From the NCBI GenBank assembly GCA_002368155.1, contig AP018180.1:1893947-1957946 (forward strand): DNA of 64,000 bases. Reading direction: 5' to 3'. Position 1 is the stretch's first letter. Each line of letters opens with the position of its first letter. A program made the translations under genes and the position numbers. This stretch comes from Nostoc carneum NIES-2107. Its GTDB lineage: Bacteria; Cyanobacteriota; Cyanobacteriia; Cyanobacteriales; Nostocaceae. The notes beneath the pieces are model-generated. The model was not told where the DNA came from. It did not search any database and saw only the letters and a list, made by a program, of their open reading frames with translations. This document shows, piece after piece, positions 23,084 to 39,557 of the stretch.

Positions 23084-23121
23084 TTAACTAATACCAAGTT
23101 TGAGTATCGAGAGATGAGATA

Positions 23122-23151
23122 GCAGGGGGCAGGGGGCAGGGGGCAGGGGGA
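23122..23151. repeat. Tandem GGGGGCA heptamer repeat
   Basis: About four copies of a G-rich heptamer in the nifE-nifN spacer. It is one of several heptamer classes in this window, and the G-runs could form unusual structures. Confidence 0.75.
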
Positions 23152-23190
23152 GCAGGATAGGAATTTTCTACCTCATCCCCCTCATCTACC

Positions 23191-24042
23191 TCATCCTTCC
23201 CATACTTCAGTAAGTACAGCCGATTCCTCAACCTCATCCCAAGGCGCTGGCTTGCGAATTTGTTCCCAAATTGGGCTGTAGAGTGCTTCGTATAATTCTC
23301 TAGCCATTTCCACCATACCTACATAACCTGCGTAGGGATGGTGACGTTCTTGGTTAATGTCGAGGAAGGGAATCCGGGCTTTGAGGGCTGTATATTGGTT
23401 ACGACCCCCAGCAATTAACATATCGGCGTTGGTGTCTTTCACCAGTTGCAGCAATTCTTTAGCATTGCCTTTTTCCAGCATGATGCCATCGTTACCGATT
23501 AATTTTTTAATCTTGGCTTTGTCTTCTTCTGTACTCTTGCGGGTGCTGGTGGCGACTACTTCTATGCCTAGGTCTTTTGCTGCGGAGATAATTGACCAAC
23601 TCTTAACACCGCCTGTATACAAGACAACGCGCTTGCCTTTGAGTCGCGCACGATAGGGAGCCAAAGCCAAATCTAGAGCAGCTGTTTCTTCAGCAATTAG
23701 CTTTTCTGTGCGCTCTTGTAAATCGCGATCGCCTAATTTAGCGGCAATATTTCGCAGACAACGATTCATATCATCGATGCCGTAGAAAGACTCTTCAATG
23801 TAAGGAATGCCGTAACGTTCCTCCATTTTTCTCGCCATGTTCAGCAAAGCGCGCGAGCAGATCATGACATTCAGCTTGGCGCGGTGAGCGTAGGTAATTT
23901 CTTGATAGCGAGCATCACCTGTAATTTTTGATAAAACACGAATGCCCAATTTTTCCAATAGTGGTGTCACTCCCCACATTTCGCCGGCGATGTTGTACTC
24001 ACCGATTAAGTTAATATCATAAGGTGTAGTATATTCAGGTTC
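23191..24042 (-). CDS. nifE: nifE 3' fragment (NifE C-terminal 283 residues)
   Basis: Encodes NifE from about residue 187 to the end: EPEYTTPYD, then [19 protein letters not shown] and the C-terminal [20 protein letters not shown] few codons upstream the homology stops at GAACCTGAA, the sequence at which the 5' half (33759-34325, on the OTHER strand) also stops. Joined there, the two give one open frame of 469 residues. This is thus an unassembled half gene, not a decayed one. The formal TTG start of this half (24048) belongs to the element. Confidence 0.95.
24034..24042 (-). other. nifE recombination core, 3' copy
   Basis: GAACCTGAA on the minus strand, the exact junction between nifE homology and foreign sequence. 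The element side (reading away from the gene) has CAACACCATCAG about 16 bases out, resembling CAACACCGCTGA beside the other copy. The partner core is at 34317-34325 on the plus strand, an inverted arrangement. Confidence 0.85.
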
Positions 24043-24222
24043 ACACAAACGCTTACTACAACACCATCAGTTTCAATTGCAGACATCTGGAAAAAAGAAC
24101 GTAATATTGCTCAATGTAGTTGATCTGACGAAAGCTATACAATCCCGTTGTAAGTTCAACTATAGTTGATGTACAAGTGTGACTATAAATACTTGTAATT
24201 AAGCAATATCCCGGCATCAAAA

Positions 24223-24711
24223 GTGGAGAAAAAAATGCTATTACGCTCTGTTGCTATTGCTTCAAGTGTAACTGTGTCAATTATATTAGGTATATTTGTA
24301 GAGGTTCAACCTAGTACTAGCCAACTTTCCCAAGTAAATAATCAAGAAGTTCCAGAAAGCAAATTGGAAATAGTTAAAAATCGTAATGATTTAATGCGTC
24401 TTAATGGTCAACGAGTGAAACTCATTGGACGTTACACATCTAGAAGTTGGAAGCCCAACCCAGAATCTACCGGAATACCAGGGTTTCAAGGACTTTATAT
24501 CAAGTCGCAAGTTGTGTTGGAGGATGAAACCAAGGTCAGTATTTACCCATCTTGGAATAAACAATCGTTGCGATCGCCTGATGAAGTAGAAAAATATAAT
24601 AATCAAATCGTTGAAGCTATTGGTGTGGTAGAGTTTGATGCTGCGCCCTTTCCAAATTCATCGACAAGGGAATCATTTATTAATTTAACGCAATTAAACT
24701 TATACAAATAG
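24223..24711 (+). CDS. Exported hypothetical protein
   Basis: A 162-residue protein with an N-terminal signal-like hydrophobic segment (about residues 8-28). The mature region has several beta-strand-like stretches (RVKLIGRYTSRSW, QVVLEDETKVSIYP, IVEAIGVVEF), resembling small OB-like periplasmic domains. No family is recognised. It is the first cargo gene next to the nifE 3' junction, with AGTGGAG before the start codon. Confidence 0.6.
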   Translation: MEKKMLLRSVAIASSVTVSIILGIFVEVQPSTSQLSQVNNQEVPESKLEIVKNRNDLMRLNGQRVKLIGRYTSRSWKPNPESTGIPGFQGLYIKSQVVLEDETKVSIYPSWNKQSLRSPDEVEKYNNQIVEAIGVVEFDAAPFPNSSTRESFINLTQLNLYK

Positions 24712-24854
24712 TAATAATTAATCAAAGTCAAAAGTCAAAAGTCCTAGCTATCCTTTGACCTTGGAATCTTGACCCTTGACAGTCCTAACGCCAGAATATT
24801 TCATCTAGGTGCGTAACAGCTTACTTATTCCAGAAAAATCTATCTATTAAATGT

Positions 24855-25733
24855 ATGATCAATAATTTGTTTGGAATATCAAATAATGTCTCTGACGGTA
24901 AACCTGGTTGGTCATTAAAGGAGCGAGATACCCAGTTTATAGAGAGGTTAATGCCTATAGGGCAATGGTTTTATCGTTACTACTTTCAAGTAAAAACTGA
25001 TGGCTGGGATTATATACCAAAAGAAGGCAAGGTATTACTAGTTGGTTCTCATAACGGTGGGATGGCTTCTCCCGACTTGATTGTGATGATGTATGACTGG
25101 TTTTCTCGCTTTGGAACTGAGCGTTTGGTTTATGGTTTAATGCATCCTTACGCCTGGGAAGTCAGTCCCATAATAGGTAACTTAGCTCAAAAATTAGGAG
25201 CGATTGTTGCCCATCCAAAAATGGCTAGTGCGGCTTTTAATTTAGGTGCTAGCGTTTTGGTTTACCCAGGAGGGCAATATGATATGTTTCGTCCTTATAG
25301 CCAACGCCATAAAATTAATTTTGCAGGCAATAAGGGCTTTATAAAACTAGCTCTAAAAGAAGAAGTACCAATTATTCCTTTAATATCTGTAGGCGCTCAT
25401 GATACTTTGATAGTTTTATTTGACTGTTATGATTTAGTCAAACAATTACATCAGTGGGGACTACCTTGGTTATATCAATTAGACCCAGGAGTATTTCCCA
25501 TTTATTTAGGTTTACCTTGGGGTTTATCTATTGGCCCTTTACCTAATATTCCTTTACCTGTGCAAATTCATACTCGTGTATGTCCTCCAATTATTTTTGA
25601 GCGATATGGCAAAGATGCAGCGAGGGATAGGGATTATGTAAATACTTGTTATGAGTTAGTTAATGTTCAAATGCAGCAAGAGTTAGATAAATTAGTTAGG
25701 GATTCTAGCGTGAAGCTAGGAGTTATAGGCTAA
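24855..25733 (+). CDS. Acyltransferase of the PlsC-like superfamily
   Basis: A 292-residue protein. GSHNGGMASPD (about 56-66) resembles the His/Asp acyltransferase motif with longer spacing, and VYPGGQYDMFRP (about 136-147) the glycerolipid-binding block. YRHKINFAGNKGFIKLALKEEVPIIPLISVG follows that order in the diacylglycerol-acyltransferase-like branch (only in part shown exact). It probably transfers an acyl chain to a glycerolipid or similar acceptor at a membrane. It is cargo of the nifE element, and a role in heterocyst glycolipids is only speculation. Confidence 0.78.
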   Translation: MINNLFGISNNVSDGKPGWSLKERDTQFIERLMPIGQWFYRYYFQVKTDGWDYIPKEGKVLLVGSHNGGMASPDLIVMMYDWFSRFGTERLVYGLMHPYAWEVSPIIGNLAQKLGAIVAHPKMASAAFNLGASVLVYPGGQYDMFRPYSQRHKINFAGNKGFIKLALKEEVPIIPLISVGAHDTLIVLFDCYDLVKQLHQWGLPWLYQLDPGVFPIYLGLPWGLSIGPLPNIPLPVQIHTRVCPPIIFERYGKDAARDRDYVNTCYELVNVQMQQELDKLVRDSSVKLGVIG

Positions 25734-25858
25734 TAAAGAGATTGATAAAAATGTTTTCTGATAACATTTAAGATTTATTCTTCTGTTATTTGCATTTCTT
25801 AAAGCAAATCTACTGGGCGCGATAATGCTTAATATTACGATGATATAAGCATGAAAGC

Positions 25859-26713
25859 GTGAATACACAACTCCTCATTTCTCCTCAAGAACTCACGTCG
25901 CTGTTAGCAGAAAATTCATCACAGGTTGTCATTATCGATACGCGCAGTCCAGAAGAATATGCTGTTTCGCATATTCCTAACTCTATTAATATCAGAGATT
26001 TTTTTACCTATCTTTTAGATAATTCTTATCCAGCAGGGTTAAATAAACTGCAAGAGCATTTTCAAGAAATTCTCAGCAGTGTTGGAATTAGTGGTGCAGA
26101 ATGGTTAATTGTTTATGAGGATGCTTTTAATAAAGGTTATGGTCAATCTTGCCGAGCAGCTTTTCTATTAAAATATTTAGGCTGCGCTCAGGTATCTGTT
26201 TTACATGGAGGATATAGAGCATGGCTGAAAGCAGAATTACCTATTACTGATGAAGTCCCATTACGTGAACGCAGCATATTTAAATTGCATCCCAACTCTG
26301 AGATGATGGTGACTACCACCGAGATGTTGCAAGCAATTGATAATCCAGCAATTATAAAATTAGATGTGCGCGATCGCGAAGAATGGCTGGGGTTGAGTTC
26401 TTCTCCCTATGCTCCTGATTTTTGTCCCCGTAAAGGTAGAATTCCTCATGCTTTGTGGCTAGAATGGCATCGTTTAATGATATCTGATGCGGAAATACCG
26501 ATGTTTCGCTCAAAAGCGGAAATTTTAGAAATTTGTGAATCTATAGGTATTACTTCAGATTCTATAGTATATGTTTACTGCTTCAAAGGTTCTAGGGCGG
26601 CGAATACTTTAATTGCTTTACAAACCGCAGGAATTTACGCCAAAAATTATTTTGGTTCTTGGAATGAATGGTCTCGCGACTTTTCACTACCTATTGATAG
26701 TAAAGTCATGTGA
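25859..26713 (+). CDS. Two-domain rhodanese-like sulfurtransferase
   Basis: A 284-residue protein with two rhodanese domains (about 5-130 and 145-280), starting at GTG. The second domain keeps the active-site loop with Cys in VYCFKGSRAAN (about 240), so it can carry persulfide; the first has DAFNKGYGQ at the matching place and no Cys, the usual inactive N-domain. Sulfur transfer could serve Fe-S or cofactor assembly, but substrate and link to nif are inference from position. Confidence 0.88.
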   Translation: MNTQLLISPQELTSLLAENSSQVVIIDTRSPEEYAVSHIPNSINIRDFFTYLLDNSYPAGLNKLQEHFQEILSSVGISGAEWLIVYEDAFNKGYGQSCRAAFLLKYLGCAQVSVLHGGYRAWLKAELPITDEVPLRERSIFKLHPNSEMMVTTTEMLQAIDNPAIIKLDVRDREEWLGLSSSPYAPDFCPRKGRIPHALWLEWHRLMISDAEIPMFRSKAEILEICESIGITSDSIVYVYCFKGSRAANTLIALQTAGIYAKNYFGSWNEWSRDFSLPIDSKVM

Positions 26714-26731
26714 AAAAGCCAGCCTGGACTA

Positions 26732-27532
26732 TTAGCCTTTGAAAATAATATCGTAAAGTGACAGCAGAATCTCTACCACAATTAAAATTACTACATACCA
26801 CTCAACTCGCTGGCTGCTACTATGCTGCATAAACTCCAGTACTGTTTGTGCAGTTTGGGAAATTAGGTCTAGTTTACGTTCCAAAGCATGGTGACGTTCG
26901 CGGATTTCGTATTCATCTTCTAATCGCAGATATAAGTTTTCTAACTGTGGGGATTCCCAGAGTAACTCCGGTTTATCAATAATCTCTACTCGTCCTACAA
27001 TTTTATGTTGAACTAACAACGTAGTGCCAAGTTGACGCAATAATTCCCGACTCTGGCGTGAACTTCTGTGTTCACTCTGGAGGCTAGCCGCAAATGGTTC
27101 AATTTGATCAAATACAGTCGCTAAGCTAGTTTCATAATGAGATAACACCACACTTTTAGCGAGAATATCAGCTACTATCTGCAAGCGTTCTACACTAAAG
27201 TCTTGCAACAAAATTTTTCCTTCCTTAACTCTCTCACTTTCGGCAAGTTTGAGCTTAATTTCCACTTCTTCTGTTTCTGGGTTGGCAAAAGCGTCACTAA
27301 CTTGTGAGGATAGTTTAGTTAAGAAGTCTACTTTTTCTACAGGCTCAAGGTTAAATAGAACAACTGCACCATAGTCGAACAGTACTGCACCACCCTGTTC
27401 ACCTACTGTAACCATCACTGGCATAGTTGCCAAGCAAATGTAATTCTCCAATGTTTTGAGATTAATTTTTTTACCAAGGAATAGGGCCTGCGCGCTAAAG
27501 CTATCTCTGTCATTAAAAAGTAATTTTTGCAT
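26732..27532 (-). CDS. RMD1/DUF155-family protein
   Basis: A 266-residue protein of the RMD1/sporulation-type DUF155 family: GGAVLFDYGAVVLFNL (about 47-62), ending in a long helical region and a C-terminal membrane helix (about 245-262) after SSQRVEWYVV. Fungal relatives are mitochondrial; bacterial function is unknown. It converges on the rhodanese gene. Confidence 0.82.
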   Translation of the reverse strand: MQKLLFNDRDSFSAQALFLGKKINLKTLENYICLATMPVMVTVGEQGGAVLFDYGAVVLFNLEPVEKVDFLTKLSSQVSDAFANPETEEVEIKLKLAESERVKEGKILLQDFSVERLQIVADILAKSVVLSHYETSLATVFDQIEPFAASLQSEHRSSRQSRELLRQLGTTLLVQHKIVGRVEIIDKPELLWESPQLENLYLRLEDEYEIRERHHALERKLDLISQTAQTVLEFMQHSSSQRVEWYVVILIVVEILLSLYDIIFKG

Positions 27533-27751
27533 TTTTGCCCTATGCTATGTTCTGCCTGTTAATCTATGGGGTAGTGATAGAAATGAATAAATTATCCCAA
27601 TTTTGAAGTCAACACGAATGTTTTTTCCCCATACACTCTAGTGTAAATAAGATGGGATATTTTTTAGTTGGCAGTTCCTAAACTTGTGGGTGATTTACCA
27701 GCAATACGCTTTGGTGAATAGCATGAAAGATTAATTTATTAGTGGTTGAAC

Positions 27752-27886
27752 AAGCCAGCAGAATTGGGGGAGAATCCCCCAAACCCCCGATTGGGGGACG
27801 GTTGCGTCCCCCAAACCCCCTCCAAAATTAGCGTTAGGTTTTTTGTTGAATAACTTAGTACACTACGGCGTAAATAAACAGACCAT
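27752..27886 (-). repeat. Composite repeat, left arm of inverted pair
   Basis: About 135 bp; read on the minus strand it matches 36108-36240 on the plus strand, nearly perfectly over the C/G-rich 80 bp (GGAGGGGGTTTGGGGGACGC and onward) and less well at the ATGGTCT end. The two arms bracket the inverted nif block, so homologous recombination between them would flip it. Confidence 0.9.
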
Positions 27887-27957
27887 CTGTAATTGCTAAA
27901 AGGCTTGTGCTATAACTATTCTTTCTTTTTACTTTTTACTTTTGCCTTGTTGTACTA
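27856..27957 (-). repeat. TAGTACA-type MITE, copy in nifK/E region
   Basis: About 102 bp with ends TAGTACAACAAGGC and TAGTACACTACGGC (inverted). It resembles copies at 36031-36138 and 52820-52928. It supplies the last nine codons and stop of the 27929-28333 gene. Confidence 0.7.
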
Positions 27958-28333
27958 GGCTATTTGTTTTCATTCGGCGATCGCAGTTTGCCTGAGTTCC
28001 CGATCGCTCTCTTCCAGGTCTTACCCAAGCAATATCTTGATCTGAATCAAGGGTCATTTGGGTGTCTCGCTCTATATCACTGTGAAATCCGCCACGGGTG
28101 GGAAATCCTGCATTATTGCGTGGGCTGGTGAACATATGATAAACAATGACTGCCTCAGTTTTCTCAACAAGATACTGTTGTGCTAGGGTATCTGCACCTT
28201 TAGCATCGCCAACTATAAAACACTCATTTTGGGCGATCGCGCGATCAATCAAAGGACGGTAATACATCTCAAATTCCGCCTGAGTTAGGTCGAGATGCCC
28301 ACTGATAAAATTGACAAGTCTTTTACTGTTCAT
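27929..28333 (-). CDS. SLOG-like hypothetical protein with MITE-derived tail
   Basis: A 134-residue protein. ISGHLDLTQAEF (about 10-21) and FIVGDAKGADTLAQQYL (about 39-55) resemble the nucleotide-binding Gly-rich face of SLOG/DprA-like folds, so a nucleotide or NAD-type ligand is likely. The final residues (LVQQGKSKK) are encoded by the inserted MITE, so the original C-terminus has been replaced. No partner gene is apparent. Confidence 0.65.
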   Translation of the reverse strand: MNSKRLVNFISGHLDLTQAEFEMYYRPLIDRAIAQNECFIVGDAKGADTLAQQYLVEKTEAVIVYHMFTSPRNNAGFPTRGGFHSDIERDTQMTLDSDQDIAWVRPGRERSGTQANCDRRMKTNSLVQQGKSKK

Positions 28334-28669
28334 CGACTGTTGTTAATTTTCTTACAACTCTCGAATCAGTTGCTTTAGTACATTTATACTGTTATAATAC
28401 CGCTGAACGCTGAAGCTTTCACCTAAACATTACCAAAGTCTGATCTCAAAACTATTAAAACAACTCGGCAACAATGTTTCTGTTTGCAGATAGAAGCATT
28501 GTTTAAGCTAATGCGCGCCTAAATTGCATAACTACTCAAGAAGGCTGTTAACTGTTAACGGTCAACGGTTAACGGTCAACGGTCAACATTCCTCATGAGG
28601 GATTGTGCAACTTAAAGGCAGAATAGCTTACTTTGCCATGAATTCCCACAAGTAGATGGAGGATTAGGT
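28334..28669. other. Intergenic with ACGGTCA heptamer repeats
   Basis: Contains tandem GGTCAAC/GGTTAAC heptamers at about 28544-28588. No gene seen. The downstream gene has a GGAGG ribosome site at its 3' end. Confidence 0.5.
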
Positions 28670-29095
28670 ATGGATAATAGTCCCAGTATTCTCTCACATA
28701 TATCGATTGGCACGAATGATTTTGCAAGAGCGATCGCATTCTACGACAAAGTACTGCCCACCCTTGGCTGTAAGCGGATTATGGAACATCCGGGTGCGGT
28801 TGCTTATGGTAAGCAGTTTCCAGAATTTTGGGTACAAACACCATTCGATGGTAAACCTGCAACCGTCGGCAATGGTACCCATATTGGCTTTATCGCACCA
28901 ACTAAAGAATCAGTTCATGCGTTTTATCAAGCAGCATTAGCTGCGGGAGGCGTAGATGATGGTGCGCCAGGCCCAAGACCGCACTATGGTGAACCATACT
29001 ATGGCTGCTTTGTCCGCGATCCCGATGGTCACAAAGTAGAAGCTACCTATTGGGATATGCAACTGATTCAGGAACTTTATGTTGATGAAGTCTAG
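28670..29095 (+). CDS. VOC-family (glyoxalase-like) protein
   Basis: A 141-residue protein with the paired beta-alpha-beta-beta-beta fold: LSHISIGTNDFARAIAFYDKV at the N-terminus (His about 10), FWVQTPFDG and GTHIGFIAP in the middle, and CFVRDPDGHKVEATYWD at the C-terminus with a conserved Glu. VOC proteins are metal-dependent lyases, dioxygenases or binding proteins; the substrate cannot be told. GGAGG precedes the ATG. Confidence 0.9.
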   Translation: MDNSPSILSHISIGTNDFARAIAFYDKVLPTLGCKRIMEHPGAVAYGKQFPEFWVQTPFDGKPATVGNGTHIGFIAPTKESVHAFYQAALAAGGVDDGAPGPRPHYGEPYYGCFVRDPDGHKVEATYWDMQLIQELYVDEV

Positions 29096-29235
29096 GCAAG
29101 ATTAGACTTTAAGCTAATCGTCATTTAAATTGCATCATTTTCATATTGGTAAAAGCTGCAAACCCTCTCCCTTACCCCCTGCTCCCTGCCCCCCTGCAGC
29201 CTCAATGTACAAATTAAATGGTTAACAGCTTATTT

Positions 29236-29973
29236 CTATTTGGCTAGCTTGATAGATAAAACTTGATAACCAGCGCCTTGAGGCATACATTGACCATCAG
29301 CATCTAAAGGACAAGCAACTTGATTGGGTGATGGACGAGTTCCTGCAACGTACTCGGCGGTAATTTCTACTTCTTGATTCTGAAGCGATCGCAATTGATC
29401 GCGAGAAACTTGCACAGATGGACGCAACACTAACCGGCTTTGGTTTGGGGTGTGAGAAATGAGAAAAAATTCCTCTCCAAGATATGCTCTAACTGACATC
29501 ACGGGAGGAATTTCTTCATAAATTAATTTTCCCCGCCAAGATAATATTTTTTGTTGATTCATAGCGTTATTTGATTGTTGCCATAATCCCCAACGATGAT
29601 TTTTAGCATTAGCTTCAGCAATTAAATATTGGGTTTTGCTCTCCGAGCAATTTTGTAAAGATTCTTGGTCAACAACCGCATTACCAGACTCTACCATCAG
29701 CAGATTAATTGAGCGATTATTCACAAACACTTCACCAACGATGCGATCGCTTCCTAGTTTTTCTGTGCGTCTAATCACAACAGAACTGAAAGGTGGTAAT
29801 AACTTTTTCAGCCTTTGTGTTGCTGGTATCGCCTGAGCAGTCGCTTTTGGTACATGAATACAGGCTAGTTGGAGTGTAATTTTTTGTCCTGTATTATCTT
29901 TAATGCGAATTGTTTCAGCATCTACAACCCCTACTATTGTAGCTAGCACTAAAATTATTTCTAGTAGCTCCAT
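29236..29973 (-). CDS. Staphylococcal-nuclease-like domain protein
   Basis: A 245-residue protein, possibly exported (hydrophobic first 15 residues). Residues 15-135 follow the thermonuclease/SNase fold: VDAETIRIKDNTGQKITLQL, RIVGEVFVNNRSINLLMVESG, then AEANAKNHRWGLW. The key Arg/Glu residues look incomplete, so activity is doubtful. The C-terminal 100 residues form an extra strand-rich domain ending near the Cys pair in ACPLDADGQC. Confidence 0.75.
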   Translation of the reverse strand: MELLEIILVLATIVGVVDAETIRIKDNTGQKITLQLACIHVPKATAQAIPATQRLKKLLPPFSSVVIRRTEKLGSDRIVGEVFVNNRSINLLMVESGNAVVDQESLQNCSESKTQYLIAEANAKNHRWGLWQQSNNAMNQQKILSWRGKLIYEEIPPVMSVRAYLGEEFFLISHTPNQSRLVLRPSVQVSRDQLRSLQNQEVEITAEYVAGTRPSPNQVACPLDADGQCMPQGAGYQVLSIKLAK

Positions 29974-30344
29974 GTATTTTTGTATAGTTATTTATGTATA
30001 GATTTATAATTTTATAGCACGTACTAGGCGATCGCCTGCTGCGGTTGTCTCTAACCATTGCAAATTCTACTTCTACGGCTATTTTGCCAATACTTATACA
30101 CTGACTATTAGCTACTTGACAAGCAGATGATGTACTTATATACATAAGATTATTCAGAAAACTTCTCGGTTTTTTTACCGATTTGCTGTATCCTAGTTAA
30201 TCCAACCAAAATTTTTCACAACTATACTTCATAAAAGATTCTTACGGGTCTGTCTGAAGATTCTTGAATAAATACATGAATGACTATCACAATTTATGTA
30301 ACAATTTTCATTGCCTAAATTTATAAAATTACAAGAAGAGTGCC

Positions 30345-30611
30345 ATGAAACTGATCAAAAAATCCGAAAAACTCCTGCTCCAGAAAATGAAAGATATGGA
30401 GGAAATTGAAGACATTAATCTTCAAGAAGATCCTCTCGACCCTCTTGAGTCTCCAGAATTAATAGAAGCAGAACAACCAGCATTGAATCTTGAATATCGA
30501 GAACCTGACTATATTCCTTACCGTCATTACCCTGTAGTGCAATCAGTGGGGAATACAGGTTGGCAGGTTTCGGAAATTTGGAAGGAAATAAGATTAGATA
30601 ATTTCTCGTAA
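30345..30611 (+). CDS. Small acidic hypothetical protein
   Basis: An 88-residue protein: basic start, then a Glu/Asp/Leu/Pro-rich middle (about 18-60), ending aromatic (WQVSEIWKEIRLDNF). I do not recognise it. It has its own terminator hairpin, which supports a real transcript. It is cargo of the nifK-side element. Confidence 0.5.
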   Translation: MKLIKKSEKLLLQKMKDMEEIEDINLQEDPLDPLESPELIEAEQPALNLEYREPDYIPYRHYPVVQSVGNTGWQVSEIWKEIRLDNFS

Positions 30612-30649
30612 TGCTTAATGACCATAGGCATCACGAGAAATTATCTGAT
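30593..30649 (+). terminator. Hairpin at the end of the 88-aa gene
   Basis: A 22-base imperfect stem (ATTAGATAATTTCTCGT and complement) with a 13-base loop that includes the gene stop codon in its left arm, followed by TTTT. Confidence 0.7.
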
Positions 30650-30770
30650 TTTCAATGTAGAACAAATTAGAGGTGAAAAACTCATACTCTGAACTTTGTC
30701 AGATAGTGGCAGTTATTTTTACCCTAAAGTATTAATACCAGTTTTAAACGAGAATGCGACAAGTACATGA

Positions 30771-30887
30771 GTAGGGGCGCAAAACTTTGCGCCCCTACAA
30801 ATGTTTGATATTTTGCTAATATTTCTAGCGTAGAATAACACTTACGCGAGATTTAGATCCCCGACTTTTTAAAAAAGTGGGGGATCT
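30771..30887. repeat. Two palindromes in intergenic DNA
   Basis: GTAGGGGCGCAAA pairs with TTTGCGCCCCTAC (30771-30798), and AGATCCCCGACTTTTT pairs with AAAAAGTGGGGGATCT (30855-30887). They look like decayed small repeats. The rest of 30650-31086 holds no gene. Confidence 0.7.
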
Positions 30888-31086
30888 GCGTAGCACTTGA
30901 GTAGGATGTGTTGGATTTTGTCCTAAAGCATCCAAGATTTTTTAGAATTAAAATTTTGATTTTTGGAAGGGTTCAGTATCCTTTTATTCTTTATCGGCTT
31001 TCTCTGAAATCAGCAGTTAATCTTTACTACCTAAAAAAAGCTTACAGTTAACAGAAATTTTGAGGTTACTAGCTATTTTTAGAGTA

Positions 31087-31245
31087 ATGATGGAGCCGCT
31101 ACAAATGAAACGATGTGAAACACTAGCTGAATTGATAGCACGCACTGTGGTTGAATTTGAGCAACGGGAGCTAGAACTGGAAAAAGCTCAGATGCAGCCC
31201 CAGGAAAAAAGCACTAAGAAGCGTAAATCTAAAAAAGTTGCTTAG
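31087..31245 (+). CDS. Small convergent ORF at the 3' end of serine recombinase A
   Basis: About 52 residues, charged and helical (ETLAELIARTVVEFEQREL), ending in a Lys-rich tail. Its stop overlaps the recombinase stop by four bases, tail to tail. ATG ATG at 31087 is a better start than the TTG at 31060. Similar convergent small frames lie at the 3' ends of the two other serine recombinases here, hinting at a conserved accessory factor. No homology recognised. Confidence 0.45.
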   Translation: MMEPLQMKRCETLAELIARTVVEFEQRELELEKAQMQPQEKSTKKRKSKKVA

Positions 31246-32792
31246 TGTAAATATAGTAGTTCAACTCCTGTTACCAGGTTGCCATCTACCAGTATTTTTT
31301 TGATACTCCCTTTAAGTAAAGCTTGTTTGTCTTCTGGTTGTAATCCTTCCCAGTATCTTGGGTTAGAAAATGCCATCACAATTCTTTCTTTAGCTATCAG
31401 ATATTGTTTAGACGCGTTGTTTGTAGTAGCGATCGCATTGGCGATTTGCATCCTGATATCTTCTTTAGCTTTGGCAATTGCTGGATTTGATGGTAACGCT
31501 TCTAGGGTATTTAATGATGCGCGTAATGTTTTGATTTCTGGTGATTCTTCTGGAGAATCAACTTTTTGTTCTATTAGTCCAGCTAACTTTTCCGCTTCAA
31601 GAATTAGATGATTAATTACCTGTTTTTCTAATTCATCAGAAGCAATCATCCGGCCGTTTTGACAAGCGCCAGTCCGATAAAAGCTGCATTGATAGTGATG
31701 ACGTACAAAACCTTTGCGTTTGACTAATTTCTTGCACTGGCGACTATAAGCTGCACCACAATGAGCGCATTTCACTAAATTGGCGAAGGGATTGACATAT
31801 TTTTGCTCGGTAGCCCAGCGGTTATTTCGATTCTCACGAATCATAGCTTTGATGCGTTCGTGTTCTTCACGGCTGATAATCGCTTCGTCTTCGTGGGTTC
31901 CCCATGTCACTTCCCATTCATCAAAGGGTTTGCGGTGTCCTTTAGGACGAACTAATGTGTTGTATAGTGTCCCTCCTGCATAGATGGGGTTGACAAGTAT
32001 CGATCGCAATCCCGAAACTGACCATTTCAACCCCGTGTGGGGATAACGCAGATTTAACGCCCCTCCACGCGATTTGTTGATATTCTCGAGTACAATTTCT
32101 TCTTCCTCTTCTAAAAGGTTAATCCTCGTATCGGTAGCTTTGGGGACGGCGTTGGCTTGGATACCAAAAGTATCATGCAGTACTTTAACTGTTTGGGAGA
32201 CTGTGCCTACTGTGAAGAATGTATCAAAGACAAATCGCATCAGTTGCGATCGCGTCAACTCTCTCTTACCTGCAATTAAACATACGCAAAGCCTTTCATC
32301 TCGTTGATATTTGTCATCCTCAACGATATAGCCCAAAGGTGCATTCCAATGAGGCTTTTTATTGGCTTTGCGGGTGTCGCGCTCTTTTTTAACTCGCATT
32401 GCTAGCATTTTCACTTCATACTTAGATGCTGCTAGTCTCACATCAATAGTTAACTCGCCACCAATACTCGATAAGTCAAACGGTTCATCTAACGCATAAG
32501 GCTGTATACCTTTCTTTTTTAACGCATCCATCAACCGATAAAAGGTCATTGATGAAGATGTTAAGCGATCAATCCGGATAAATAACAGCTTCGATACTTT
32601 TCCTGGCGCAGATGTGTTGATATCTTCAATTAACTGTAACAGCCCTTTCCTTTGATCGCTGGTACGGCTTTCTACGTCGTAATATATGTGCGTTGCGCCA
32701 GCATCACGCAACCGACGCATCTGTTTAATTAACGAGCCTTGATCTTCAGCTTGTTCATCTGTGGAAACCCGCGCATAACCCCAAACGTCCAT
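31242..32792 (-). CDS. Large serine recombinase A, XisF-like (nifK side)
   Basis: A 516-residue large serine recombinase. The catalytic Ser is in GYARVSTDEQ (residue 10), with the resolvase-domain Arg motif in FIRIDRLTSSSM (about 72). The recombinase domain spans about 165-330, a zinc ribbon follows (CAHCG and CSF... about 345-385), then a coiled-coil segment. It resembles XisF of the fdxN element. Its start lies 51 bases from the nifK 3' core and it reads away from nifK, so it most likely acts on the nifK cores. Confidence 0.93.
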   Translation of the reverse strand: MDVWGYARVSTDEQAEDQGSLIKQMRRLRDAGATHIYYDVESRTSDQRKGLLQLIEDINTSAPGKVSKLLFIRIDRLTSSSMTFYRLMDALKKKGIQPYALDEPFDLSSIGGELTIDVRLAASKYEVKMLAMRVKKERDTRKANKKPHWNAPLGYIVEDDKYQRDERLCVCLIAGKRELTRSQLMRFVFDTFFTVGTVSQTVKVLHDTFGIQANAVPKATDTRINLLEEEEEIVLENINKSRGGALNLRYPHTGLKWSVSGLRSILVNPIYAGGTLYNTLVRPKGHRKPFDEWEVTWGTHEDEAIISREEHERIKAMIRENRNNRWATEQKYVNPFANLVKCAHCGAAYSRQCKKLVKRKGFVRHHYQCSFYRTGACQNGRMIASDELEKQVINHLILEAEKLAGLIEQKVDSPEESPEIKTLRASLNTLEALPSNPAIAKAKEDIRMQIANAIATTNNASKQYLIAKERIVMAFSNPRYWEGLQPEDKQALLKGSIKKILVDGNLVTGVELLYLH

Positions 32793-32822
32793 ATATCAAA
32801 CCATAGCAGCGTTAGTTCATTT

Positions 32823-32849
32823 TATCTGATAGCCAACGCATTAGTTCAC
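32823..32849. other. nifK recombination site, 3' copy (arm plus core)
   Basis: The core GTTCAC (32844-32849) marks where nifK homology begins. The element arm to its left reads TATCTGATAGCCAACGCATT and is nearly identical to the arm at the other nifK core (37765-37787). The joined circle site would be an imperfect palindrome, as serine recombinases require. Confidence 0.85.
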
Positions 32850-33103
32850 TGTTGTTCACCGAGCCAGTTGACCTATTAATCGGTAACTCCTACGGTAAGT
32901 ACCTGTGGCGCGATTGCAAGGTTCCTTTAGTAAGAATCGGCTATCCCATCATGGATCGTCACCACCTGCACCGCTACAGCACCATTGGTTACCAAGGTGT
33001 AATCAACCTCCTCAACTGGGTTGTTAACACAATCTTCGAGGACATCGATCAACGCACCAACATTCCTTCCAAGACTGACATTTCTTACGACTTAGTTCGA
33101 TAG
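32844..33103 (+). CDS. nifK: nifK 3' fragment (C-terminal 84 residues), inverted
   Basis: Encodes the NifK C-terminus: LLFTEPVDLLIGNSYGKYLW, then RIGYPIMDRHHLHRYSTIGYQG to the end. It is on the plus strand while the 5' part (37788-39069) is on the minus strand. Joining at GTTCAC gives exactly 1536 bases, a 511-residue NifK in frame (HLRS-LLFTEP). There is no start of its own; the TTG near 32852 is spurious. This is an unassembled half gene. Confidence 0.95.
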
Positions 33104-33196
33104 AAATTAAAGTCACTCGCGGCATATTTAAAAAGTAAAAAGTAAAAGATATTTCTTTTTACTTTTTACTTTTTCCTTGTACCTGAGGTATTGATT

Positions 33197-33529
33197 ATGG
33201 CAAGTATTAGTCAGGGTCACTCTCATCCTCATCCTAATTACCATCCACCAAACTATAAACGCTCTGGTTCTTTTGATATTCTCCAACCTTTGCGCCGTCT
33301 GGTAGATGGTATTCCGGTAAAAAATGCTCGTTTTGCCCATATACTCTGTAGAGTAATACCTTGCTGTTGCCCGTTTGAGCGCGATATCAATTTATTTGGG
33401 CGGACTTACCATATTCCAGCACTGTGCAAATTTAATCCTTTGTATGACGAAGTCGTTAGTTTGCGCTTGCGGGCTTTATCTTTTCTTGCCGATGAATGTG
33501 GTGAGGATGTGACGAAATACATCTGTTAG
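33197..33529 (+). CDS. Mo-dependent nitrogenase C-terminal-domain protein
   Basis: A 110-residue protein of the small family annotated as Mo-dependent nitrogenase C-terminus. It has a His/Pro-rich start (HSHPHPNYHPP), a CCCPFERD Cys cluster (about 50-57) and RTYHIPALCKFNPLYDE. It normally lies between nifK and nifE in heterocystous cyanobacteria, as it does within this block. ATG at 33197 has GAGGT upstream. It has been carried along in the inversion, so it is transcribed opposite to the operon until the block flips. Confidence 0.9.
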   Translation: MASISQGHSHPHPNYHPPNYKRSGSFDILQPLRRLVDGIPVKNARFAHILCRVIPCCCPFERDINLFGRTYHIPALCKFNPLYDEVVSLRLRALSFLADECGEDVTKYIC

Positions 33530-33539
33530 CTTTAGACAT

Positions 33540-33730
33540 TAATCAATACCCATTACCTATTACCATTAGTCATAACTTATTAGTCATTGGTCATTAGTCA
33601 TTAGTTCTTAATTTATTTAAATGACAAATGACAAAGGAAAGAGAACACTTAACACCAATTTCAAAATCATAAATTCTAGAAAACTCAGGTTTTCTTAATT
33701 TTGAATTTTGAATTTTGAATTTTGAATTGT
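33540..33730. repeat. Heptamer tracts in the spacer before nifE
   Basis: TTAGTCATTGGTCA-type heptamers (about 33563-33606) and a TTGAATTT tandem (33700-33730). The same TTCAAAA unit appears reversed at 36048-36078 and in the nifD-nifK spacer at 39174-39230. Confidence 0.7.
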
Positions 33731-33758
33731 TATACTGCCATCCAGCAAGAGAAGAGAG

Positions 33759-34325
33759 ATGAAAATCACCCAAGGCAAAATTAACGAGCTGCTTAGTGAG
33801 CCAGGATGCGAGCATAATCAGCACAAGCAGAGCGAAAAGAAAAATAAATCTTGTAGCCAACAAGCACAACCAGGCGCAGCTCAAGGGGGTTGTGCTTTTG
33901 ATGGCGCAATGATTGCTCTAGTACCAATTACTGATGCTGCTCATTTAGTCCACGGGCCGATCGCCTGTGCTGGTAACTCCTGGGGTAGTCGTGGTAGTCT
34001 CTCTTCTGGCCCCATGCTCTACAAAACGGGCTTTACCACAGACTTAAGCGAAAATGATGTCATCTTTGGTGGCGAGAAAAAGCTCTACAAAGCTATTGTA
34101 GAAATACATAAGCGCTACAACCCAGCAGCCGTGTTTGTTTACGCCACCTGTGTGACGGCTTTGATTGGTGATGATATAGATGCTGTTTGCAAAACTGCGG
34201 CAGAAAAATTAGGGACTCCTGTGATCCCAGTAATTGCGCCGGGATTTATTGGCAGCAAAAACCTGGGTAATCGCTTTGGCGGTGAAGCTTTGCTGGAATA
34301 TGTAGTTGGTACAGCAGAACCTGAA
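33759..34325 (+). CDS. nifE: nifE 5' fragment (N-terminal 189 residues), inverted
   Basis: Encodes the NifE N-terminus with cofactor/cluster Cys in GGCAFDGAM (about 43), [14 protein letters not shown] (about 66) and [13 protein letters not shown] (about 130). Homology ends at GAACCTGAA; after it the frame runs into the element and stops at 34346. Fusion at that core to the 3' half at 24042-23191 gives 469 residues with no gap ([11 protein letters not shown]). AAGAGAAGAGAG before the ATG is a plausible ribosome site. Confidence 0.95.
34317..34325 (+). other. nifE recombination core, 5' copy
   Basis: GAACCTGAA on the plus strand, with CAACACCGCTGA nine bases into the element. It is inverted relative to its partner at 24034-24042. 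Confidence 0.85.
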
Positions 34326-34381
34326 CACTTTCAACAACACCGCTGATGATATGATTTTCCGACTGATTTGAATGGATTCCC

Positions 34382-35788
34382 ATGAAAGTTTACGGTTACG
34401 CCCGCGTGAGTACACAAGAACAAGCTGAGGAATTTGACGCGCTAAATCAGCAAGTAGCCAGATTAAAAGCAGCGGGTGCAACAGAAGTTTTAATAGATAT
34501 CGAGTCAGGACGCAACGATGAGAGAAAACAGTATAACGAGTTGCTGAAGTTGGTACAACAAAACCAAGTTGATGAACTTATCATCACTCGCGTTGATCGC
34601 TTGGGTAGAAGTGTGATTACTATCCATAAAGCGATCGATGTTTTTGTGAGGCATAATGTCAATCTGCGGATATTGGATGCACCCGTTGACCCCAATTCCC
34701 CCTTTGGCTGGTTTAGTATTAATCAAATGTCGGGGTTGGCAGAATTTGAATCCAGGCTGTTATCCCAACGAATTCGCCACGGAAATAATTATTTTCGCCA
34801 GCAGTTAAAATATTGCGTTCCTCCCTTCGGATATACGAAAGACGAAAATCAGCGGTTAACCCCTAACCATAATATTCACCCCCAATCAGGGAAGACTTAC
34901 TTTGAGCTAGCCAAGATAATTATCGACTTAACCCTGTCGATGCGATCGCTTAAGGATGTGTGCGATTATATTTACACCGAATATGAAATAGTTTTTAGTG
35001 TCGCTGGCTTGCGAGATTGGGTAAGAAACCCCGCACTACAAGGGCATACAGCTTATTTTTTCCGTAAAAAGAAAGGCGTTAATCGGGAACCAATTATTAA
35101 TTTCAATACCCACGAAGCCTTAATTACCGCCGCCACAGTAGAAGCTATCCAACGCAAGCTGTCAGAAAATAAGAAGTATCGCAGTTCTGCAACATCAACC
35201 CGTGGCGACTATCCACTCGCTGGTTTAATTAAATGCGCCCACTGTGGCGGCAGTATGTATCGTAACCTTTCCCGCCACAAAACCAAAGTTGAGTACATCC
35301 GCTGCGTTAATTACAATAAACCGGGAAAATATCACTGCGAAAACTCCAAATGTACCCGACTGCGGGAAATCATCGCCCAGACGATCGCAACTTTATGTGA
35401 AAATGCACCCCATTTAATCGAACATCTAGAAACTCAGTCAACCACAATGCAGGTGACGAATACCAAAGAAATTGACAAATTCACCAATGAATTATCCGTA
35501 TTGCGGGGACTTCGCAGTTCTAACCCCGATATCATGGAAGCGATCGCCAAAATCGAGGCGACAATTAACACCCTATCAACACCCACTAGAATTGTTGATA
35601 GGGATGCTTTTGAAAATGCCAAGCGAAAAATAGCGATCGCTTCTCAAGCTACATTCTGGGAATCGCTGGATGATTCAGAACTGCGATCGGCGTTGGCTGA
35701 GTTCGTAGAGAAAGTTGAGGTGGACTCTTCAGGAACTATCACTCCTACCTTTAAATTGCCATTAACCCTATCCTCAATGCGCCCATAG
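34382..35788 (+). CDS. Large serine recombinase B, XisF-like (nifE side)
   Basis: A 468-residue large serine recombinase. Catalytic Ser in GYARVSTQEQ (residue 10), TRVDRLGRS (about 73), recombinase domain about 135-265, zinc ribbon CAHCGG...C (about 283-325) and a C-terminal helical part ending ATFWESLDDSEL. It starts 57 bases from the nifE 5' core, reading away from nifE. It is most like recombinase C (59761-61107), and its likely target is the nifE core pair. Confidence 0.93.
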   Translation: MKVYGYARVSTQEQAEEFDALNQQVARLKAAGATEVLIDIESGRNDERKQYNELLKLVQQNQVDELIITRVDRLGRSVITIHKAIDVFVRHNVNLRILDAPVDPNSPFGWFSINQMSGLAEFESRLLSQRIRHGNNYFRQQLKYCVPPFGYTKDENQRLTPNHNIHPQSGKTYFELAKIIIDLTLSMRSLKDVCDYIYTEYEIVFSVAGLRDWVRNPALQGHTAYFFRKKKGVNREPIINFNTHEALITAATVEAIQRKLSENKKYRSSATSTRGDYPLAGLIKCAHCGGSMYRNLSRHKTKVEYIRCVNYNKPGKYHCENSKCTRLREIIAQTIATLCENAPHLIEHLETQSTTMQVTNTKEIDKFTNELSVLRGLRSSNPDIMEAIAKIEATINTLSTPTRIVDRDAFENAKRKIAIASQATFWESLDDSELRSALAEFVEKVEVDSSGTITPTFKLPLTLSSMRP

Positions 35789-35910
35789 GTTTTAATGAAC
35801 TCTTCTGGAGACATATTCCCAACCTCCAAGTCCCCGTAGTATCTTTCATAAGCTGCGAGTAACTTGTCATTGAGCATTTTTAGCACTTTTTGAGAATGTG
35901 TTGAACTCAT
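35644..35910 (-). CDS. Small convergent ORF overlapping recombinase B
   Basis: An 88-residue frame whose last 48 codons lie antisense to the recombinase 3' end. The non-overlapping part (MSSTHSQKVLKMLNDKLLAA, then a helical stretch with MSPEEFIKTYGR) looks like a real soluble helical protein. Its Ser-rich tail is forced by the opposite strand. Compare the equivalents at 31087-31245 and 60987-61169. Function unknown; a directionality factor is one possibility. Confidence 0.5.
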   Translation of the reverse strand: MSSTHSQKVLKMLNDKLLAAYERYYGDLEVGNMSPEEFIKTYGRIEDRVNGNLKVGVIVPEESTSTFSTNSANADRSSESSSDSQNVA

Positions 35911-36030
35911 AAAACATTCTGTAGCGATGTTTTTAGGTTATTTCTTGGGTGGAATTTTTCTGTTAGCAGTGAACGACTTTCACAACGCTAAGTTCAAGCA
36001 CAGAGACGCTTGCAGCTAAAATTTTCACAC

Positions 36031-36138
36031 TAGTACCGCTGCGCGGAATTCAAAATTCAAAATTCAAAATTCAAAATGAATACAGCGTTAGGTTTCCTTG
36101 ATTTGGAATGGTCTATTTATTTCCGCCGTGCTGTACTA
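36031..36138 (+). repeat. TAGTACA-type MITE with TTCAAAA tandem
   Basis: Ends TAGTACCGC and GCTGTACTA are inverted; the right 40 bp (TTATTTCCGCCGTGCTGTAC) recur at 52909-52928 and in altered form at 27856. The interior holds four AATTCAAA units. Confidence 0.65.
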
Positions 36139-36240
36139 GTTACTCCACAAAAAATAGAAAATAATTTTGGAGGGGGTTTGGGGGACGCAACCGTCACCCA
36201 ATCGGGGGTTTGGGGGATTCTCCCCCAATTCTTCTGGCTT
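36108..36240 (+). repeat. Composite repeat, right arm of inverted pair
   Basis: The plus-strand partner of 27752-27886. The best-conserved part is 36166-36240, with only a few mismatches. It lies on the nifK side of the inverted block. Confidence 0.9.
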
Positions 36241-36872
36241 TTTTAATAAGTGAAAAATCAATCACAAATGAACTTAACCCAAGCGTATTGGGCTATATTA
36301 TTGATATTTTTTCAAAAATCAAATCAGATTCCTATAGTTTGATTTAAAAAATTACTAGTATCTAATAGTAAAATTTTATCAAATAATGGCTAATTTTCCA
36401 CTTAGAATAATTTGTATTTTCAGGCTGAAATAGTCAGCCATTTATTTAGATGAACCTCTATCTTGCTTATAGTTAAAACTAACAAAGCCCCGAAATAAAT
36501 TCAGGGCTTCGCTATATAAACCACTTATTAAATGCCAGCTATAAATCTTTGCCAGCGCTTTTATCTATGTAACTATCTTCGCTCAATTTTTTGCTGAAAG
36601 CTAGGGGAGATCTACCCAACTTTTACCTAATTTTGCTTAGGTAGCTCTTTAATAATTTTTTTAGCTTTGACAACACCCCACTTTTCTGTATTTCATCACA
36701 ACACTCAGTATAATTAGCTAGAAGCTTAAGCAAGTAGAGAGTAATATAAATGAGCTAAAGTCTACAGATAACCAATTTTCAATCATCATCAAACCCTGAA
36801 ATTGTAGGGTAAGTTAGCCTATGGCGTAACCCACCCTACTGAATTGATAGCCCCAATTTTGTCACACAACTT
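36241..36872. other. Intergenic, no gene seen
   Basis: AT-rich. It contains a hairpin AAGCCC(C)GAA / TTCAGGGCTT near 36485-36510 and a short GTAGGGTAAGTTA...TAACCCACCCTAC repeat at 36804-36839, the small cousin of the 148-bp family. Confidence 0.5.
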
Positions 36873-37265
36873 TTACTGCTGTTGTCTCAGTTGCTGTTGG
36901 AGTCTCAATGTTTCCATTTGCTGTCTTTGTTGATTTAGTTGAAATTGTTCAAAGGGTTGCTGTCTTAATTGATTTTGGAGTCTACGTTGTCCAAATGGTT
37001 GTTGTGGATTGAGTTGATTTTGCAATCTAAATTGTTCAAATCGTTGTTGCTGTCGGAGCATTTGTTCATCTTGCTGCTGCCTAAAGTTTTGCCATAGTTT
37101 TTGAGAAGATGATTGATTGGTTAAGTTTTGGCTTTGTTGTTGTAGCTGCGGTTGGTTTGGAAGTATCGTTTCATTTATATCAGCTCGTGCAGCAGAAGTA
37201 ATCACAAACTCTGTTGCCAAGGCAACAAGTATTAACCCTGATTTAACTATCAATGAATAATTCAT
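36873..37265 (-). CDS. Exported glutamine-rich protein
   Basis: A 130-residue protein with a signal peptide (about residues 7-28, ending ARA-D). The mature part is over one third Gln with phased Gln-Arg-Leu-Phe units (QQPFGQRRLQNQL, QQPFEQFQLNQQ). This composition suggests a periplasmic or outer coiled or aggregating protein. No family recognised. It is cargo between recombinase B and the nifK 5' junction. Confidence 0.65.
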   Translation of the reverse strand: MNYSLIVKSGLILVALATEFVITSAARADINETILPNQPQLQQQSQNLTNQSSSQKLWQNFRQQQDEQMLRQQQRFEQFRLQNQLNPQQPFGQRRLQNQLRQQPFEQFQLNQQRQQMETLRLQQQLRQQQ

Positions 37266-37764
37266 ACAGTTTTCTCAAAAAGGCAGTTTTTTGTTGCTGT
37301 GGCTACGTTAAACAATAGTTTTGTTGATGATTTTGGCTAAATCTTCTACTTCATCACTCTTCAATACCTAAAATGCTGCCAATTAAATTGCAAATCGTAG
37401 CCCAATTAATTAGAATCCACCAGCCTCTCATAATTGCGACTAGGTAATTCTTGTTTCTCAATGGCTTTTAGATATTGACCATTGAGGCTATATTTTAATT
37501 TTATCGTAATTTAATTTGATTCGGAAAAAATCTAACTATATATATAGTGTGTGATTACTGAGATTACTGCATTGACAAGATTGCTAGGTGAGCTACTCCA
37601 AAGCCTTGATATGGCTATATTATAAGTAGTGCGATCGCTCACACCATAACCATAATTTTTCTTGACAACTTTAACGCATAATATACAATCTAAATGCGTA
37701 GAAGCTAATTATGGTTAGCATATTTCCCCAGTTACAAAAAATAATTTGTCGCTACACTCTAAAA
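37266..37764. other. Intergenic, element side of nifK junction
   Basis: About 500 AT-rich bases with no supported gene, ending in the recombination arm at 37765. Confidence 0.4.
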
Positions 37765-37793
37765 TTATCTTGATAGCAAGCGCATTGGTGAAC
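37765..37793. other. nifK recombination site, 5' copy (arm plus core)
   Basis: The arm reads TTATCTTGATAGCAAGCGC then ATTG, followed by core GTGAAC (37788-37793), the complement of GTTCAC. The arm matches the one at 32823-32843 in the same orientation while the core is reversed, which shows that the two sites now stand inverted. Confidence 0.85.
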
Positions 37794-39069
37794 GTAAGTG
37801 CCACAAGTCTTTACCTGCCCAGATTTTAGCTTCCTTACCGAATGGGCTAGAATCTAGCAATGCTTGCAGTTCTTTTTCAAATACATCGTTGGAGTTGTGA
37901 ACCAAAATGTGAACAGGTTCAGCACCCAATTCCAGCATGAAGCTAACAACACTGTAAACCAAATCGGGATCGCCGTAGATAGCGAAGCGCTTACCGTGAA
38001 CCCAAGCATGGGAGTCAGTCATTGCGTCAACTGCACGACCGCGTTCGATTTCTAGTTCTTCAGGAATGGGTTTACCAGTCAGTTCGCTGAGTTTCATCAG
38101 GAACTCATCAGTACCCTTGATACCCCAAGGACGAGAAACGACTACATCTTGCTTCCATTCTTTAGTGATGTAATCACGGGTCTTAGGAGTAGAGTGAGCT
38201 TGCAGAACAACTGTAGCTTTAGCATTAATTGCATCTGCTGCATCTTCCAACTTAGTACCACCTGGGTACATATTAAATTCACCATCATTGGGTGAATCTA
38301 CATAGTCGCTGCTATCTGAGAGCAGGGTGTAGTCAAAGCCCATCACAGAAGCGATACGCTTGATTTCGCGGTAATTGCCTACATAGGTGTCAAAACCAGC
38401 GATAAAGTTGATTTTGCCGTTGCTGCTGGATTTCTTCTTACCTGCTGTTAAGGTAGTCAGAATCCCTTTCATCATGTTGTCATAGCCAGTGATGTGGGAA
38501 CCCACAAAGCTAGGAGTATGAGCGTAAGGAACTGGGAAATCTTGAGGAACTGAACCAGCACTCTTAGCGTTGTTAATAAACGCTTGTAAGTCATCCCCGA
38601 TAACCTCAGCCATACAGGTGGTGCAGACTGCAATCATTTTGGGCTTGTACAGAGTGTAAGAGTTTGCCAAGCCATCAATCATGTTTTGCAGACCACCAAA
38701 CACGGCTGCGTCTTCAGTCATAGAAGAAGACACACCAGAGAATGGTTCTTTGTAGTGACGGGTTAAGTGGGTACGGAAGTAAGCCACGCAACCTTGAGAA
38801 CCTTGAACAAAAGGTAGAGTACCTTCAAAGCCAGCAGCAGCGAACATAGCGCCTAAAGGTTGGCAACCTTTAGCTGGGTTAACTGTCAACGCTTCACGAG
38901 CGAAGTTCTTTTCACGATAATCCCAGCTTTTTGTCCATTCTGCAACCCGTTCTACTTCAGCGGGGTCATGACCGTTTTCAAACTCTTTCTTGTTTTGAAA
39001 AAGTTGTTTGTACTCGGGTTGGTGGAACAGTTGAACGTGATCTTGAATGTTATCTGGATTCTGAGGCAT
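37788..39069 (-). CDS. nifK: nifK 5' fragment (N-terminal 427 residues)
   Basis: Beta subunit of the MoFe protein. P-cluster Cys are visible in [10 protein letters not shown] (about 69), [12 protein letters not shown] (about 94) and [12 protein letters not shown] (about 152), with the Ser in [13 protein letters not shown]. Homology stops at HLRS; the open frame continues seven codons into the element (PMRLLSR) and stops at 37765. Without rearrangement it would make a truncated NifK. GGAGAT precedes the ATG. It follows the nifD 3' piece by a 225-base spacer. Confidence 0.96.
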
Positions 39070-39173
39070 TTCTGGATCTCCAAGCTGACTGAATTCGTGA
39101 CTGACTGGTCAAAGATGAGGATTTCGAGCGTGGGTAGGTGATGAGAGTTAAGGGTGGGAGTGGGAATATTATT

Positions 39174-39266: not shown

Positions 39267-39294
39267 CCCCTTCTAAACTCTCGATTCCATTTCC

Positions 39295-39439: not shown

Positions 39440-39557
39440 TTTTTATGGTTCAATTACTTTCAGTAGCCTAATGTTCGCTGTAATCAATGTCATTCCTAAA
39501 CATTGTTCGCCCAGAACACATTTATTTTTAGGCTAAATCTAGGCTAAAAATACCGCG

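Follow-up and report, generated by a model that had tools for sequence, protein, structure and literature searches.

Inverted halves of nifK and nifE in Nostoc carneum NIES-2107: a proposed inversion-and-deletion route to gene assembly in heterocysts

Introduction

How can two nitrogenase genes be put together when the halves of each face in opposite directions? This question is raised by nifK and nifE in a stretch of 64,000 nt from Nostoc carneum NIES-2107, referred to below as the window, within which all coordinates are counted unless a contig is named. Genomes are designated by G numbers, and the genome of the window is G000. Elements that interrupt cyanobacterial genes are known for fdxN (with the recombinase XisF), nifK, nifE, nifD (XisA), and hupL (XisC) (Hilton et al. 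2016, PMC4874684).

The answer proposed here, which is considered highly probable, is that the locus arose from two separate elements, was rearranged by an inversion, and is restored in heterocysts by an inversion and a deletion that rebuild both nifK and nifE. A nifK element with the recombinase XisK and a nifE element with the recombinase XisE would once have stood in the usual direct orientation, and an inversion that began in one element and ended in the other would have reversed the 3' part of nifK, a Mo-nitro_C gene, and the 5' part of nifE. In cells becoming heterocysts, XisK or XisE would recombine its own two sites, flipping 4.95 kb if the nifK sites react or 10.29 kb if the nifE sites do, and rebuilding one gene; this flip would make the other pair of sites direct, and the second recombinase would then delete 12.28 kb as one fused circle, rebuilding the other gene. 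The end state would be nifK, the Mo-nitro_C gene, nifE, and nifN in a row. The timing of both reactions in heterocyst development, their assignment to XisK and XisE, and the origin of the inversion are inferred.

Architecture of the Split Locus

The limits of the interruption can be read from a relative of the same genus, G015, which has uninterrupted nifE and nifK and thus the exact empty sites. Three blocks of the window, 22000-24042, 32844-34325 (reverse strand), and 37788-40000, can be aligned to its operon; their ends coincide with short cores shared by the gene halves, and in G015 they overlap by exactly 9 bp and 6 bp. The features of the locus are as follows.

23191..24042, minus strand: nifE 3' part, from codon 187, in the normal operon orientation with nifN downstream
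24034..24042, minus strand: nifE core GAACCTGAA, 3' copy, from the overlap of the G015 alignment blocks
24043..24065, minus strand: element arm at the nifE 3' site, the portion of insert A adjoining nifE 3' that can still be aligned to G012
24043..32843, no strand: insert A, 8.8 kb, not in the G015 operon, with xisK at the nifK 3' end and genes of chromosomal type
27702..27855, plus strand: dispersed repeat copy 1, about 150 bp, facing the opposite way to copy 2; candidate breakpoint for the ancestral inversion
31242..32792, minus strand: xisK, large serine recombinase (Resolvase, Recombinase, and Zn ribbon), adjoining the nifK 3' site
32844..32849, plus strand: nifK core GTTCAC, 3' copy, from the G015 alignment blocks
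32844..33103, plus strand: nifK 3' part, reversed relative to nifK 5'
33191..33529, plus strand: Mo-nitro_C gene, within the inverted block between nifK 3' and nifE 5'
33759..34325, plus strand: nifE 5' part, reversed relative to nifE 3'
34317..34325, plus strand: nifE core GAACCTGAA, 5' copy, from the G015 alignment blocks
34326..37787, no strand: insert B, 3.46 kb, not in the G015 operon, with xisE at the nifE 5' end
34382..35788, plus strand: xisE, large serine recombinase, adjoining the nifE 5' site
35644..35910, minus strand: 88-aa open reading frame (ORF), overlapping the end of xisE; candidate accessory (directionality) factor
36135..36290, minus strand: dispersed repeat copy 2, in insert B
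37760..37787, minus strand: element arm at the nifK 5' site, the portion of insert B adjoining nifK 5' that can still be aligned to G012
37788..37793, minus strand: nifK core GTTCAC, 5' copy, the core shared by the nifK halves
37788..39069, minus strand: nifK 5' part, in the normal operon orientation

When the halves are joined at their shared cores, nifE is open over 469 codons and nifK over 511 codons, with no stop or frameshift, and no letter N is present anywhere in the window. Each insert contains one large serine recombinase gene adjoining the gene half that it serves, so that XisK and XisE both lie near an end of their element, as is typical of interruption elements. Such elements are bracketed by direct repeats, whereas the two cores of each pair face opposite ways in the window. 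XisE stands after nifE 5' with matching orientation, and XisK stands ahead of nifK 3' with the opposite one; these placements, usual for the two elements (Hilton et al., PMC4874684), count in favour of the proposal. A sequence-only reading had previously described the locus, and all of its coordinates and strands for the gene halves that were checked proved correct. It had also held that shared cores join the halves into gap-free frames of 469 and 511 codons, neither gene being decayed; the cores reappear as the exact 9-bp and 6-bp overlaps of the G015 blocks, and the intact frames were reproduced, with ratios of nonsynonymous to synonymous substitution rates (dN/dS) of 0.03-0.13 in addition.

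Genes for an acyltransferase, a rhodanese, and a DUF155 protein occupy 24855-27532 in insert A and would depart with the circle. Elsewhere in the window, a tyrosine recombinase-like gene is located at 39558-40976, and a third large serine recombinase gene (59764-61086) has as its neighbour a middle segment of nifD (59125-59706), nifD apparently being split more than once in this genome.

Outcome of Recombination at the Cores

Because each core pair is inverted, the first reaction must be an inversion, after which the other pair is direct. Neither core contains a palindromic dinucleotide when inspected by eye, and recombination between the inverted sites should therefore yield inversion. The core sites of the window were recombined by a script in either order. 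Starting from the nifK sites, an inversion of 4950 bp was followed by a deletion of 12278 bp; starting from the nifE sites, the inversion covered 10292 bp and the deletion again 12278 bp. Both orders led to an identical product, which aligned to G015 in one piece (7505 bp at 95%). The sizes anticipated earlier (10.3, 4.9, and about 12.3 kb) and the anticipated topology, in which either pair may invert first, the other then becomes direct, and the order does not matter, were thus recovered. In an ungapped test, the arms of the nifK site resembled an inverted repeat, a match as good being reached in 11 of 5000 shuffles.

Conservation of the Inverted Block and Selection on Its Genes

The inverted order and the inserts of G000 are also found in Tolypothrix PCC 7712 (G013) and Tolypothrix PCC 7910 (G018), the insert segments that align being 77-96% alike among these genomes; insert B of PCC 7712 contains about 5.7 kb of extra sequence that cannot be aligned to the window. 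The PCC 7712 assembly, with a chromosome of 9,007,860 nt, was obtained from Nanopore plus Illumina data and has no gaps, and this strain forms heterocysts without nitrate, with acetylene reduction measured (PMC9679502). In the sections considered, that report does not discuss the nif arrangement of PCC 7712. In a fourth genome, Nostoc linckia FACHB-104 (G014), the nifE halves are inverted on one contig and nifK 5' is located on another, both contigs terminating inside a copy of the dispersed repeat; this genome therefore fits the full inverted order without proving it.

For all six pairs of these four inverted genomes, dN/dS ranged over 0.030-0.125 for nifE, 0.061-0.104 for nifK, 0.063-0.089 for xisE, and 0.048-0.079 for xisK; the nif rows of G012 were left out, as its cores differ, while its xis rows were kept. 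By this measure, both split genes and both recombinases are under purifying selection among the inverted genomes, and their divergence would postdate a shared inversion, provided that the block was not passed from strain to strain. The grouping of G000 with G013 against G014 with G018 is backed by 41 sites in xisK (against 7 and 8 for the alternatives) and by 58 sites in insert A (against 23 and 21), and no grouping is favoured by xisE (10, 10, and 7 sites) or nifE (8, 4, and 6 sites).

The case for a need of the split genes differs in strength among these strains. PCC 7712 has one nifK of Mo type, the next best full-length match being at 37%, and PCC 7910 has a single nifK and no vnf-like hits; no statement on nitrogen fixation by PCC 7910 was found in the literature. 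The need is judged firmer in these two strains than in NIES-2107, where a second intact nif cluster and vnf-like genes make it less firm.

An Uninterrupted Relative Within the Inverted Clade

Full-length nifE and nifK are present in G016 and G017 as well as in G015. When exact joined-sequence patterns for both junctions were searched in 8 genomes, only G015 matched; these patterns are tuned to the inverted clade and do not detect the intact genes of G016 and G017, which have a different sequence. G015 contains no close XisE or XisK, its best matches reaching 39% and 43%.

A tree of concatenated rpoB and two DNA_topoisoIV-family genes unites G000, G013, G014, G015, and G018 in one clade (support 100), within which G000 and G013 group with support 100 and G014, G015, and G018 with support 99, the branch of G014 and G015 receiving 54. 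The single-gene trees retain the five-genome clade (100, 96, and 100) and place G015 with G018 in the first (51), with G014 in the second (99), and with G018 in the third (99), differing on the rest. On these genes, the intact G015 is nested inside the inverted clade. On the simplest view, the inversion would be ancestral and G015 would have lost both elements cleanly in a dividing lineage, an outcome that the two-step path predicts.

Evidence Against the Proposal and Rival Explanations

Several observations weigh against the proposed route. Joined nifK and nifE in heterocysts are inferred, and the directionality factor is a candidate only. No significant dyad emerged from the ungapped test of the arms of the nifE site, 3564 of 5000 shuffles giving a match as good. 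The order of G014 and G018 differs from one single-gene tree to another. In nifK, the three groupings are backed by 1, 2, and 25 sites, the 25 supporting a grouping other than that of the species tree, which is a sign of exchange of nif genes between strains of the clade; given such exchange, the intact allele of G015 could have been imported from an unsampled relative within the clade. Regarding need, a second, intact nif set lies at C1:5.915-5.922 Mb in NIES-2107, where vnf-like genes are also found, near 1.0 Mb, the name vnf being a reading of 37% matches; vnf-like genes that might in principle sustain nitrogen fixation are present in PCC 7712 too, and other intact nifE-like genes exist at 70% identity in PCC 7712 and 63% in PCC 7910. 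PCC 7601, which is 99.98% identical to PCC 7712 and whose nif genes are said to be identical, forms no heterocysts and fixes no nitrogen, for a cause that its authors did not find (PMC9679502), so that the arrangement alone proves no function. In addition, the genome of NIES-2107 was assembled from Illumina short reads with 8-kb mate pairs (PMC8634303).

These observations bear on three rival explanations. The first is that the split genes are a dead remnant, never rebuilt, and that nitrogen is fixed through the second nif cluster or the vnf-like genes. The intact second set and vnf-like genes of NIES-2107 would allow this, but neither nifE nor nifK of the window contains a stop or frameshift, the genes and their recombinases retain dN/dS of 0.03-0.13 across four species sharing the inversion, and PCC 7910 has neither another nifK nor vnf-like hits. 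Death of the genes was rejected on the open frames and the dN/dS, and the remnant explanation as a whole is regarded as quite unlikely.

According to the second, the block flips both ways in vegetative cells, through the dispersed repeat or the recombinases, and heterocysts develop from cells in the usual orientation by deletions only. The inverted repeat copies do bracket the block in the right places; yet the repeat is short and its copies are only about 85% alike, G013 and G018 were assembled in the inverted state as well, G014 fits this state, and each assembly shows one orientation only, the joined junctions being absent from all four inverted assemblies in an exact-pattern search. Such flipping is accordingly given very little weight.

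The third, an assembly error that placed the block backwards, for example across the inverted repeat copies at 27.7 and 36.2 kb, draws on the short-read origin of the window genome, the presence of the inverted repeat in exactly the two inserts, and the view of Hilton et al. (2016, PMC4874684) that seven opposite-facing cases were likely mis-assembled, but it is hardly credible and was rejected, since the copies match at about 85% over 129 nt, a length exceeded by the 300-bp reads (PMC8634303), and since the order is conserved between species, recurring in PCC 7910 and in the gap-free Nanopore/Illumina chromosome of PCC 7712, with G014 fitting. The possibility of such an error had been raised with the first description of the locus, and it is this long-read genome of another species that answers it.

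Ancestry of the Elements

The recombinases were sought in 217 genomes of the family, and the counts below refer to genomes rather than events, four of the seven inverted nifE cases being one lineage. XisE was found at an identity of at least 77% in 21 genomes, 13 of which have both nifE halves on one contig. The halves are inverted in seven (G000, G013, G014, G018, G096, G169, and G188, the last being a metagenome assembly and tentative) and direct in six (G012, G078, G184, G192, G193, and G198); in the remaining 8 of 21, nifE is spread over several contigs or lacks a half. XisK was found at an identity of at least 73% in 38 genomes, and in 24 of these a single contig carries the 3' part of nifK together with its 5' (or a middle) part; these parts are inverted in four (G000, G013, G018, and G173) and direct in 20, and in the other 14 of 38 nifK is spread over several contigs or lacks a part.

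Both elements are in direct order in Calothrix brevissima NIES-22 (G012), its nifK element spanning about 116 kb. A composite element carrying both recombinases from the start is not favoured, given the separate direct elements in G012, G198, and G078, XisE of G078 being broken into two frames. None of the remaining genes of insert A (24223-30611) is matched in either the nifE or the nifK element of G012, and genes related to those for the acyltransferase, the rhodanese, and the DUF155 protein are located elsewhere in G012, G016, or G017. The ancestral gene content is therefore uninformative, and although one copy of the dispersed repeat lies in each insert, in opposite orientation, its use as the breakpoint of the ancestral inversion is a guess. 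Many copies of this repeat, about 150 bp long, occur in related genomes among the matches listed.

The 88-aa ORF accompanies the nifE element in 8 of the 8 relatives examined, in one of them only in part, and gave no family match of weight; it is a candidate for an accessory (directionality) factor. It is antisense to the end of xisE, is present in two copies in G037 and G192, and stands apart from xisE, in part only, in G096. In Calothrix parasitica NIES-267 (G184, C1:6956034-6958438), the nifE halves are direct and xisE lies next to nifE 3' with reversed orientation, as an in-place flip of the element would leave it. G031 combines an intact-nifK locus and a split-nifK locus (contigs C53 and C160), with nifE split in both, and perhaps represents two strains.

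Scrambled nif Operons in Other Lineages

In G173 (C1:3435-19522), a block of nifD 3' and nifK 5' is reversed between nifK 3' and nifD 5', which is the same two-step topology with other genes; by eye, its nifK core is the very short GTAG. The segment contains an ndhH-like gene, a 397-aa ORF named by eye.

Another arrangement is found in Calothrix NIES-3974 (G096, C1:3914430-3944042) and Calothrix PCC 6303 (G169, C3:242071-258392), where the segment running from nifE 3' through fdxH is inverted with respect to nifE 5'. To rebuild nifE in both strains, a single inversion at the nifE cores would be enough, and nothing would be deleted. The resulting nifE is open over 467 codons in NIES-3974, the join in PCC 6303 being judged by eye only, and in both strains the split nifE is the only nifE discernible among nitrogenase-family hits. 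NIES-3974 is likewise a short-read, mate-pair assembly (PMC8634303). It is likely that heterocystous cyanobacteria harbour scrambled nif operons that need programmed inversion, with more than one origin, as seen in the nifK/nifE block, the nifD/nifK block, and the nifE-to-fdxH stretch, with linked recombinases acting in either order, and with a single inversion at nifE, deleting nothing, in strains such as NIES-3974 and PCC 6303.

Comparison With Known Systems

The locus resembles the nif interruption elements in that an element lies in a nif gene with a recombinase gene at one end and short core repeats, and in that rebuilding by site-specific recombination is predicted, nifK and nifE being known targets (PMC4874684). 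It differs from them in its inverted and linked core pairs, where those elements have direct repeats and require one deletion, and in that the two elements would be released together as a single fused circle. Hilton et al. (2016, PMC4874684) also saw the sections of an interrupted gene in opposite orientation, in seven cases of "odd assembly" that were judged likely to be mis-assembled. Those cases were not characterised further there, unlike the present one, for which a gap-free long-read genome, conservation across species, and selection can be cited; this argues that at least one opposite-facing arrangement is genuine, occurs in more than one species, and is subject to selection. The proposal that the locus is a new variation is supported for the predicted inversion step, which would go beyond simple excision, whereas the sighting of opposite-facing halves is not wholly new, seven such cases having been seen before. 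No inversion step in heterocysts appears in the titles or abstract openings among the literature matches listed, and the passages of PMC10308936 considered do not mention nifK, nifE, or nifD.

Accounts of developmental gene repair in bacteria speak of excision, and at this locus an inversion would have to precede it. Serine DNA invertases such as Hin, PinQ, and Gin are switches for variation. The likeness to Hin and PinQ is that a serine recombinase acting on inverted sites inverts the DNA, and the difference is that inversion here would be an obligatory part of gene assembly. In spirotrich ciliates, scrambled and reversed gene pieces are put right in a specialised nucleus under RNA guidance; the storage of gene pieces out of order and reversed is common to both systems, while the ciliate process, unlike that proposed here, is not known to use a site-specific recombinase with defined cores. 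In Bacillus, a site-specific recombinase rebuilds sigK (skin) or spsM (SP-beta) during development by a single deletion and, unlike the path proposed here, is not known to need an inversion step. What the two Bacillus systems share with the present one is a recombinase that rebuilds a gene in a developing cell type (PMC4191935, PMC5025042). The nifK-nifE locus illustrates the coupling of two neighbouring elements, neither of which can be removed alone by plain excision, and cases formerly judged mis-assembled become testable.

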